Below are positions 41,792 to 43,635 of a stretch of DNA of 50,429 nt, in pieces; position 1 is the first letter of the stretch, and each line of letters opens with the position of its first letter. The stretch is from Peptoniphilus indolicus ATCC 29427 (lineage in GTDB: Bacteria; Bacillota; Clostridia; Tissierellales; Peptoniphilaceae): NCBI RefSeq assembly GCF_000227315.1, contig NZ_JH165061.1:242953-293381 (forward strand). Direction: 5' to 3'. Under the pieces are notes generated by a model. It was given only the letters and a program-made list of their open reading frames with translations, was not told the origin of the DNA and ran no database searches. Position numbers and translations under genes: made by a program.

Positions 41792-42703
41792 ATGGAACTA
41801 ACGGAAAAATTTGAAGTAGATGATTGTAAAAATAAAATTTCATACAATATAATCCATGGCGATATTCCCATCAAAATGTCTCCGGATTTAGTCGATGCCA
41901 TAAAGTACTTACTTTGGTACGTTCCTGATATTGCATCAATTCAATCTCGTGACAATGAATTGGTTTCAAATGTTTTATATGATGATTTTACTTTTTTAGA
42001 AATTATGAAATATATGAAGCTAAGAGATGAAGATGTCTGGTTTGCAGATGAAATTCCAAAAGCAATTGAAGAAATTTATAGACACAGCGTATGTACCAAT
42101 TCTCAAAAAATTGTAATGACCAAGGGTGAAAATGAAACTAAAACCAGTGCCGTTCTAAGACATATAAGAAATGCAATTGCCCATGGTTATTTTAATATCG
42201 TAGAAAATTTAATTGTTGGGTTTGACTATAAACCTGTAAATAAATATGAAGAAAAATGCACTGCTTTTTTTAAAATAGACCCTACAAACTTGCTGATGGC
42301 TCTTAAAAGTTTGGACAATGAGCTAACTTCAACACAACTGGTTACTTTGGCTCTTAAAAACAATGGTTACCACGTTGGTAAATATGAAGAAAATTTTGAA
42401 ACAAGCGAAAGATTTGATTTATATGCTCGTAAAGGCTCCCAAAAATATGCTATCGAGCTCAAATCTTATAATGCTCAAGAAAAAATACATCATCAAGACG
42501 TTTTGGATATGATTGCAAGTTTCGAGGGAATGTTTCGAGATTTAAAAACTGTTTTAGTAATAAACTCTTCATTTTTGCTTGAAGAGTCAAAAGATGAATT
42601 ATTAAAACATGACGTAATAATCTTAGACGTTAAGAATATTAAAAAGATGCTAGCCGGCAGAGATATGCTCTCTGAAATTGTAAGAGATAATAAAATTAAA
42701 TAA
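41792..42703 (+). CDS. Putative HEPN-like/PD-(D/E)XK two-domain nuclease
   Basis: 303 residues of no named family that I recognise. The N-terminal half is helical and contains HIRNAIAHGYF with Arg126-Asn127 and His131, the Rx4H motif of HEPN RNases. The C-terminal part (about 180-290) begins LVTLALKNNGYHVGKY. It has Asp209 in RFDLYAR and Glu222-x-Lys224 in YAIELKSY, the order and spacing of Mrr-like PD-(D/E)XK nucleases. No membrane segment is present. It is monocistronic between a strong terminator and a convergent putative RNA. A defence or toxin role is inference; RNxxAH motifs also occur in non-nuclease helical domains. Confidence 0.6.
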   Translation: MELTEKFEVDDCKNKISYNIIHGDIPIKMSPDLVDAIKYLLWYVPDIASIQSRDNELVSNVLYDDFTFLEIMKYMKLRDEDVWFADEIPKAIEEIYRHSVCTNSQKIVMTKGENETKTSAVLRHIRNAIAHGYFNIVENLIVGFDYKPVNKYEEKCTAFFKIDPTNLLMALKSLDNELTSTQLVTLALKNNGYHVGKYEENFETSERFDLYARKGSQKYAIELKSYNAQEKIHHQDVLDMIASFEGMFRDLKTVLVINSSFLLEESKDELLKHDVIILDVKNIKKMLAGRDMLSEIVRDNKIK

Positions 42704-42713
42704 TTTTGGACAT

Positions 42714-42757
42714 AAAAAAAGATAGTTACTCATTTATATGACTTAACTATCTTTTTT
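42714..42757. terminator. Bidirectional terminator
   Basis: A7 plus GATAGTTA (42714-42728) pairs with TAACTATC plus T6 (42744-42757). It ends the two-domain nuclease gene on the plus strand and the putative RNA on the minus strand. Confidence 0.92.
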
Positions 42758-43040
42758 ATACTTCACATTCCATCCAACTGTACATTTTTGGTTCTATCAC
42801 TGTCTATCAACTTCCTCTCTTTAACCTTACTTTTTCATCTCGTTTAAAATATTTTATAGTCTACTTTAATTTTTAATCTAAGGTCAACCAATAATTCTTA
42901 ATACTCCATTGCCAAAAACCCTACTCTTAAGTTTTTGTAGAGAACTAAGTCTTACCACTTAACATACTACTTGCGTTCAATCTATATAAACGCCTTCGCG
43001 ATTTTTAAAAGTTGGATGGAATTGTAAAGGTTCAACATCG
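42758..43040 (-). ncRNA. Putative structured non-coding RNA, class unknown
   Basis: 491 bases (42704-43194) carry no plausible reading frame. Within them ATTCCATCCAACT (42767-42779) and AGTTGGATGGAAT (43010-43022) are perfect 13-base complements and would form a closing stem around 230 nt. A strong terminator follows directly on the minus strand. Inside, GCGTT/AACGC, a CAAAAAC/GTTTTTG hairpin and a TTGACCTTA/TAAGGTTAA helix (42821-42829 with 42879-42887, one G-U) can form. The minus strand is purine-rich. I see no SRP, RNase P or tmRNA signature; 6S-like RNA or a new class remains possible. Confidence 0.5.
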
Positions 43041-43194
43041 GCTCGGTATAAAGTATTATTTTATCTTCCGATGTATTATTAATATACCCATCGTTTTTAC
43101 TATTAAACATTTTTTTCAAACTTTTTTTATTTTTTTCAAATTAATTTTTTGAAAAATATTTTTTCATTGTGTAAAATATTTTTTGGTGATTAAT

Positions 43195-43635
43195 ATGAAT
43201 TTTTTTAGATGAGGCTATAAATCTTGCTCTTAAATCTATTGAACATGGGGATATCCCCGTTGGTGCAATTGTTGTAAAAGACAATAAAATAGTTGGTCGC
43301 GGATACAATCAAAAAGAAAAAAGGCTGATGCATCTGCCCATGCTGAGTTATTAGCTCTCCAAGATGCGGCTAAAAATCTTGGAACTTATCATCTTGAAGA
43401 TTGTGAAATTTATTCAACCCTTGAGCCATGTTGTATGTGCGCAGGTGCAATAGTTAATTTTAGGATAAAAAAAGTATATATAGGTACACGAAATCCAAGA
43501 TTTGGGTGTTGTGGCAGCAACTTGAATCTGCTTGATTCTGTTTTGAACCATACAACTGAAGTGGAATTTTTAGATGATGCTAAATGCTCAAAAATCATCT
43601 CCGAATTTTTTAAAGGTTTGAGAAAAGATAAATAG
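43195..43635 (+). pseudogene. tadA: tRNA adenosine(34) deaminase TadA, two frameshifts
   Basis: TadA makes inosine at the wobble position of tRNA-Arg(ACG). ATG 43195 with a GGTGAT site runs into TGA after five codons. Removing one T from the T7 run (43200-43206) gives MNFLDEAINLALKSIEHGD, then IPVGAIVVKDNKIVGRGYN. One A must then be added to the A6 run (43317-43322) to reach KADASAHAELLALQDAAKN with the HAE zinc ligand. STLEPCCMCAGAIVNFRI and a C-terminus ending at 43635 follow. The two indels cancel. All catalytic residues exist in the pieces. As written, no functional TadA could be made. Confidence 0.9.

Follow-up and report, generated by a model that had tools for sequence, protein, structure and literature searches.

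What kind of RNA, if any, is enclosed by a perfect inverted repeat in the genome of Peptoniphilus indolicus? The repeat lies on contig C1 of this 2.24-Mb genome, in which the locus is single copy, and falls within the window (the whole stretch of 50,429 nt that was analysed). From the letters of the window, an earlier note had proposed a structured minus-strand RNA with paired ends, closed by a 13-base inverted repeat spanning 256 nt and followed by a strong terminator. These elements are all present. The two arms (42767-42779 and 43010-43022) are exact, 13 nt each and 100% complementary, with 230 nt between them, and on the minus strand a 14-bp hairpin (42715-42728/42744-42757) with a T run behind it makes an ordinary intrinsic terminator. 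The minus strand of 42755-43035 folds at -62.3 kcal/mol compared with -45.5 +/- 4.1 for 200 dinucleotide shuffles (z -4.1), none of which was as good; the plus strand of the same interval gives z -2.4, with 2 of 200 shuffles equally good. The end stem is found again with compensatory changes in other species, and is therefore beyond chance. One of its 13 pairs is broken in the alignment with the sister species G001, the nearest relative, which belongs to the same genus and is 79% identical over 331 of the 361 query positions. A further helix proposed in the note (42821/42879) proved weak, with two of its nine pairs broken in this species and seven kept (alignment, by eye).

Described RNA classes do not account for the locus. 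The window has no Rfam match at the gathering threshold, and relaxed thresholds gave only chance-level matches at the locus, at 18 loci from the homolog search and at 10 distant ones; the best sub-gathering matches have E values of 0.37 or worse, and above the gathering score there were only tRNAs in the flanks. No class of Rfam 15 fits the locus or its homologs, in line with the earlier suggestion that the RNA stands outside the described classes. The other suggestion, a divergent 6S RNA (RF00013), was rejected, as nothing was detected at the locus and the genome encodes its 6S RNA elsewhere (C1:860696-860873, 79.5 bits). No signature of tmRNA, RNase P RNA or SRP RNA had been recognised in the letters, and this was confirmed: ARAGORN found no tmRNA in the window and the tmRNA of the genome (RF00023) lies at C3:55262-55604, RNase P RNA (RF00010/RF00011) is of type A and lies at C3:38920-39254, type B having no match genome-wide, and the window shows no Rfam match to SRP RNA. 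In size range and paired ends the locus resembles 6S RNA, tmRNA and RNase P RNA, but each of these is encoded elsewhere in the same genome. A mobile or phage element with terminal repeats was likewise rejected; no plasmid match was found for the single-copy locus, and the five listed of ten matching phage records cover 12% at E 0.3.

Read along the minus strand, the locus has the following features.

43104-43109, minus strand: -35 element TGTTTA; a TGTTTA-like box with about 17-nt spacing lies upstream of most homologs (by eye).
43081-43086, minus strand: extended -10 element GGG-TATATT, a GGTATAAT-type box in homologs.
42714-43074, minus strand: inferred transcript of ~361 nt, with its start taken from the -10 box and its end from the T run.
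43035-43074, minus strand: 5′ hairpin with a 7-bp stem (ACATCGG/CCGATGT) at the inferred start.
43010-43022, minus strand: 5′ arm ATTCCATCCAACT, complementary to the ORF tail.
42973-42993, minus strand: small hairpin with the string UUUAUAUAGAU (42990-42980), seen by eye in many Peptoniphilus homologs.
42913-42937, minus strand: hairpin B, with a covarying 7-bp stem and the conserved loop UUA(A)GAGUNGG (homolog comparison).
42811-42819, minus strand: Shine-Dalgarno region GAGAGGAAG, 10 nt upstream of GTG.
42756-42800, minus strand: micro-ORF MIEPKMYSWMECEV, 14 codons plus stop, open from GTG.
42767-42779, minus strand: 3′ arm AGTTGGATGGAAT, equal to ORF codons 8 to 12 and complementary to the 5′ arm.
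42714-42757, minus strand: intrinsic terminator (hairpin and T run), the stem of which starts within the stop codon.

The earlier note had seen no open frame here, and in this it was mistaken: an ORF of 14 codons, with a Shine-Dalgarno-like sequence in front, occupies 42800-42756. The pairing of the RNA ends stands, but the 3′ arm of this end stem is the second half of the small ORF. The strand was assigned correctly, and the inferred start, expected near 43030-43040, moves to about 43074, some 35-45 nt further upstream. A script located the GGTATAAT-type -10 box in 24 of the 26 family homologs; in the remaining two it was recognised by eye, and it is also present in most distant homologs and in another family. 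The letters of the 5′ hairpin stem differ among genera yet pair by eye (CCAAATAAG/CTTATTTGG, CCAAG/CTTGG). The anatomy of promoter, arms, ORF and terminator is well supported, and the locus looks like a stand-alone bacterial RNA with its own promoter and terminator, absent from the catalogues checked. Within the promoter (43074-43109, minus strand), the -10/start region is near-palindromic in many Peptoniphilus loci (GGTATAAT...ATACC), a possible regulator site.

A literature search for this RNA found no earlier report, paper supplements being outside its reach. The searched text of RNA-discovery papers makes no mention of Peptoniphilus, Tissierell-, Finegoldia or Anaerococcus, and the string MIEPK, with which the window peptide begins, matched only papers on unrelated engineering topics, judged by title. 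Absence from print is not proven, because the thousands of candidate RNAs that one study (PMC8040213) lists from human microbiomes sit in supplements outside this search.

With a relative from genus g22 as the blastn query, 35 of 130 family genomes matched, some weakly and by chance. In nine of 30 blastn loci the script detected no layout; by eye, two of these (L032 and L037) carry the ORF, and the other seven match weakly and by chance. Nor is there a layout in L261, a second covariance-model hit in G119. Strong homologs share one layout, in which a TGTTTA-like -35 box is followed after ~17 nt by a -10 box of the GG-TATAAT type and then, at the inferred start, by a hairpin. Next come a 5′ arm (e.g., GACAATTCCATCCAAC) and an interior of variable length, and the unit closes with a short ORF that has a Shine-Dalgarno-like sequence in front of it and a terminator behind it. 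Among 26 family homologs the 5′ arm begins ~220 to 730 nt upstream of the start codon, that of L048, where automatic arm picking was wrong, being taken from a separate analysis. A degenerate peptide-level pattern matched once in each of 26 of the 130 family genomes (g1, 3/3; g22, 14/14; g13, 4/4; g8, 3/5; g25, 1/2; g28, 1/1), with no match in the 31 genomes of g24 and none in a backward-read control. A pattern scan of genome contigs returned 104 stretches, 20 of which have a stop inside 17 codons and then a T run, the other 84 lacking the short stop, the T run or both; sixteen of these 20 are among the 80 titles listed, 15 from Peptoniphilus and one a Tissierellia MAG.

The covariance-model search proposed in the note was productive in part: Rfam yielded nothing, and a new model of the 3′ piece (R1), which has only 4 pairs of built-in structure and is therefore in effect a sequence model, matched 38 of 249 genomes of the order, 24 strongly and 14 at E 0.003-0.1. 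The weak matches include true homologs in other genera of the family and in another family (f4), with a terminator past the stop (peptides such as MIEPKTERWSSCSKSYL, MIEPKSECWCSHN, MIEPKNFRWCEGRVL and MIEPKMNCWFRFEIKQ). A lenient pattern gave 42 matches in 41 of the 249 genomes and 17 of 92 genera, with six matches in the backward-read control. After checks, in which G185 was removed (terminator absent), G141, G144, G019 and G100 were added and G122 was inspected at another copy only, all searches together place the layout in about 44 of 249 order genomes and 16 of 92 genera. Nine of ten matches in 391 genomes of the class fall within the order and the tenth (G283) has no terminator, both matches in 398 phylum genomes fall within the order, and the 27 pattern matches from viral contigs all lack a short stop plus T run; the layout is in none of these 27, which also counts against a phage element. 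No believable case was seen outside the order in the class, phylum and viral-contig samples, where absence means absence of the pattern, because exact patterns miss diverged members. Some genomes carry two or three paralogs of the micro-ORF RNA. There are three copies in G121 (L271, L256) and two in G118 (L278, L213), and two of the G121 copies, ~1.2 kb apart, differ in their peptide tails (MIEPKMNCWFRFEIKQ and MMEPKIECWSEIESSK).

Translated from GTG, the in-frame peptides are MIEPKMYSWMECEV in the window, MIEPKIISWMDLEG in G001 and MIEPKNLSWMELDI in G023, and the consensus is M-[I/M/T]-E-P-K-x-x-x-W... over 12-18 codons, with a Shine-Dalgarno-like sequence upstream of the start in most homologs (by eye). 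In 44 distinct homologs, picked with patterns that fix several bases, including GAACC, the start codon is GTG (38), ATG (5) or TTG (1), codon 2 is ATT (21), ATA (18), ACA (3) or ATG (2), codon 4 is CCA (34) or CCT (10), and the stop is TAA (29), TGA (9) or TAG (6). The variable bases of codons 1-5 in this set are positions 1 (G 38, A 5, T 1), 5 (T 41, C 3), 6 (A 21, T 21, G 2) and 12 (A 34, T 10), with single changes at 13 and 14. A recount was made on 32 distinct loci retrieved by the covariance model and not by pattern: codon 1 is GTG 27, ATG 4 and TTG 1, codon 2 is ATA 15, ATT 13, ACA 2 and ATG 2, codon 3 is GAA 31 and GAG 1, codon 4 is CCA 23, CCT 8 and TCA 1, and codon 5 is AAA 30, ACA 1 and AAT 1. 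Changes in codons 1-5 are mostly at third positions or between start codons, those in codons 2 and 4 affecting mainly the third base. All 44 homologs have a terminator-like hairpin with a T-rich end, the stem of which sets in no earlier than 6 nt before and no later than 1 nt past the end of the stop codon.

These counts bear on whether the RNA is purely noncoding, a regulator in which GUGAUWGAACCWAAA is a protein- or RNA-binding motif and the start codon, Shine-Dalgarno sequence and stop are incidental. The near invariance of GAACC and AAA, even in loci not chosen by pattern, would suit such a motif, as would the conserved loop that hairpin B carries on a covarying stem. In the covariance-model loci, however, position 1 is G, A or T, giving start codons only, and positions 6, 9 and 12, i.e., codon third positions, hold much of the variation; all three stop codons are used, Shine-Dalgarno variants precede the ORF, and the interior is short or without hairpin B in some members (in L270 the 5′ arm ends 157 nt before the start). 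A purely noncoding RNA is accordingly judged unlikely. An RNA-level constraint on the same letters is possible, because codon 3 is GAG in one locus type only and AAG does not occur at codon 5, not even in L052, a member richer in GC. TGG occupies codon 9 in 40/44, and the exceptions (L059, L062, L069 and the L278 copy) still pair with the 5′ arm, so tryptophan 9 may serve the RNA helix more than the peptide. The peptide has drifted to MIESN in G100, a 76%-complete genome. A frameshift site was considered and rejected, as no in-frame slippery heptamer was seen by eye.

Across homologs, changes in the ORF tail are matched by changes in the 5′ arm, as in L052 (GATCATCCAACTT/AAGTTGGATGATC), L062 (TTCCATTCC/GGAATGGAA), L069 (GACAAATCCATCCGATA/TGTCGGATGGATTTGTT) and L209-type loci (AATAGGACTTTGA/TCAAAGTCTTATT); further pairs are GATTTTAAATCTGAACCAAC/GTTGGTTCAGATTTGAAATC, of 20 bp, and GATCATCC/GGATGATC, and that of L226 is 20 bp and perfect. 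As a swap control, every ORF tail was scored against the upstream region (700 nt) of every homolog. The tail's own upstream region ranked first in 25/44 and not first in 19/44. Within the Peptoniphilus group, where the arms of sister genera are still alike, the count was 10/26, and outside it, where the tails differ strongly, 15/18, the misses being L266 (rank 8 of 44), L269 (2 of 44) and L213 (2 of 41). L050 ranked 11 of 44, and its arm lies beyond the tested 700 nt. In full-length folds, the mean predicted unpaired fraction is 0.59 for codons 1-5, 0.51 for the Shine-Dalgarno sequence and 0.11 for the tail, and the tail is less unpaired than codons 1-5 in 42/42 folded homologs (L267 and L268, in which the script found no promoter, were left out). 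At the level of sequence comparison, the covariation of arm and tail identifies the 5′ arm as a built-in antisense strand to ORF codons from ~8 to near the end. A conserved trans target of the arm is unlikely, because its sequence differs strongly between genera.

The helices that take in the ORF tail, which reach 20 uninterrupted bp, could also be processing stems, in which RNase III would cut the ORF and the stop-less message would pass to tmRNA, the RNA reporting on or feeding ribosome rescue. A tmRNA is present in the genome, and the cutting of short messages within their frame has a precedent in arfA; the window helix, however, is 13 bp with an interrupted extension, short for RNase III, and we consider such processing improbable. 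The favoured reading, to which we would give an even chance, is that the locus encodes a micro-peptide mRNA with built-in fold-back control, possibly one that is also dual-function.

Between arm and ORF, the hairpin B motif is recognisable in 23/26 family loci (not in L048, L059 and L062). Its stem cells are paired in 85%, and in 58% with the arms swapped between genera. RNAalifold recovered both the end stem and hairpin B from 11 g22 sequences, with 60 pairs, 11 of them with two-sided changes, and hairpin B is supported by such changes; the end stem is almost invariant in this alignment, and the argument for it therefore rests on the wider comparisons. The mixed alignment A5 was too gappy for use. 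Because hairpin B is absent from some distant members, the core consists of promoter, 5′ arm, Shine-Dalgarno sequence, ORF and terminator. The idea that the hairpin B loop pairs with the 5′ arm was rejected, since the variable loop base does not track the arm, as was a second ORF in the g22 interior, where indels between close relatives break the frame (both by eye). The interiors of L047 (G009) and L049 contain short degenerate repeats (AAGAAACAAA-like and GTAAAAAAT-like), and long interiors may grow freely.

The neighbours of the RNA differ among loci, which indicates that it is a unit of its own that has moved. In the g1, g8 and g13 loci examined, the opposite strand carries a tadA-like deaminase gene no more than ~1.6 kb upstream (another frame intervenes in L087, and G002 was judged by eye only); in g22 loci the upstream neighbours are other genes. 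In the window and in G001 the next gene is a convergent HEPN-like gene. The window copy (41792-42703, plus strand) encodes 303 aa, and its HEPN match (PF18736, 23 bits) is under the 26.6 cut-off; P. asaccharolyticus keeps the gene beside the RNA, as do three g13 loci, to judge from similar start sequences. The tadA-like gene of the window (43196-43635, plus strand) is in pieces, apparently frameshifted at homopolymer runs, and the P. asaccharolyticus copy is open (L009 1940-2383). Because tadA is normally essential, the broken frame may be a sequencing error. In f4 (L263, L264, L266, L275), the RNA lies between what we take to be a FeoB-like gene region and a phosphoribosyltransferase-like gene, and in g28 and g57 between genes presumably resembling topA and recD2.

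This arrangement raises the question of a cis-acting leader (attenuator) for a downstream gene, with the terminator as the switch. Placing a leader peptide in front of a terminator is a known device, and in four of the five other-family loci retrieved with flanks the gene that follows on the same strand is alike (presumably encoding a phosphoribosyltransferase-type protein), the fifth contig stopping there; a downstream gene also recurs in g28/g57. The next long gene is, however, on the opposite strand in the window, P. asaccharolyticus, P. harei, P. lacydonensis, P. obesi and two more g13 loci, and downstream genes differ elsewhere, so that no same-strand downstream gene is conserved throughout; nor do the 3′ arm and the terminator stem overlap in the window. 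A leader is thus improbable for the RNA as a whole, with a cis role conceivable at the f4 site. Across the homologs, the promoter, 5′ arm, Shine-Dalgarno-like sequence, ORF and terminator stay together as a set, and interior length and neighbours vary.

End-to-end pairing would also suit a type I-like toxin mRNA with fold-back inhibition. Covariation backs the long-distance 5′-3′ pairing here, and two or three paralogs are found in some genomes, but the peptides consist of 12-18 mostly polar residues, hydrophilic and without a membrane-like stretch by eye, and a toxin is very improbable. In the fold-back toxin mRNAs aapA3 and hok, long-distance 5′-3′ pairing likewise closes a small-ORF mRNA (PMC6733600), in a translationally inert fold with the Shine-Dalgarno sequence sequestered; here the helix lies within the ORF tail, the Shine-Dalgarno sequence and start are predicted to be about half open, and the peptide does not resemble a toxin. 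Dual-function RNAs (SR1/SR1P, RNAIII/delta-haemolysin, SgrS/SgrT, VcdRP) are alike in being stand-alone structured RNAs of regulator size with a small ORF (PMC8672173), but have larger peptides (VcdP, 29 aa, compared with 12-18 codons) and confirmed base-pairing functions, and it is in the present RNA that the ORF tail pairs with its own 5′ arm. The odc1 uORF motif (PMC8632094) is similarly a conserved very short peptide (11 aa) inside a structured RNA; that motif precedes a main ORF, its presumed target of control, whereas here there is often no same-strand downstream gene. By analogy, the RNA would work like the fold-back mRNAs and dual-function RNAs, with membership shown in none of these groups.

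As a micro-peptide mRNA with fold-back control, an autonomous sigma-A-type, terminator-ended RNA would present a very short, tightly controlled reading frame. In the predicted folds, the Shine-Dalgarno sequence and codons 1-5 are about half open and the tail is closed. An initiating ribosome reaches ~15 nt into the frame, counting from the first start-codon base, and the fold-back helix would begin just past its edge, where the conserved codons end. The ribosome could bind, yet would have to melt the helix to complete the peptide. Translation and the long-range fold would gate each other, setting peptide output, RNA stability or a second RNA activity. From sequence, we infer that the RNA is produced, that its ORF is translated and that ribosome and helix compete. 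How the helix would repress is not obvious, because it leaves the Shine-Dalgarno sequence uncovered, and a translating ribosome is normally able to melt such a helix. A bolder proposal, tentative and unlikely, is a new ribosome-gated RNA class, in which an initiating ribosome would be captured on the open Shine-Dalgarno sequence and MIEPK codons, with the remaining codons locked in an end-to-end helix that it must open, making the frame a mechanical switch rather than, or besides, a peptide gene.

Peptoniphilus and its relatives would thus carry an RNA gene, its promoter conserved, that slips through the catalogues: its structure makes it unlike a gene, its coding part sets it apart from noncoding RNA, and gene finders pass over anything so short. 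Its last codons, coevolving with its own 5′ end, would offer a clean natural system for studying how translation and long-range RNA folding control each other, and the case shows that frames of 12-18 codons are traceable from family to family via their RNA setting.
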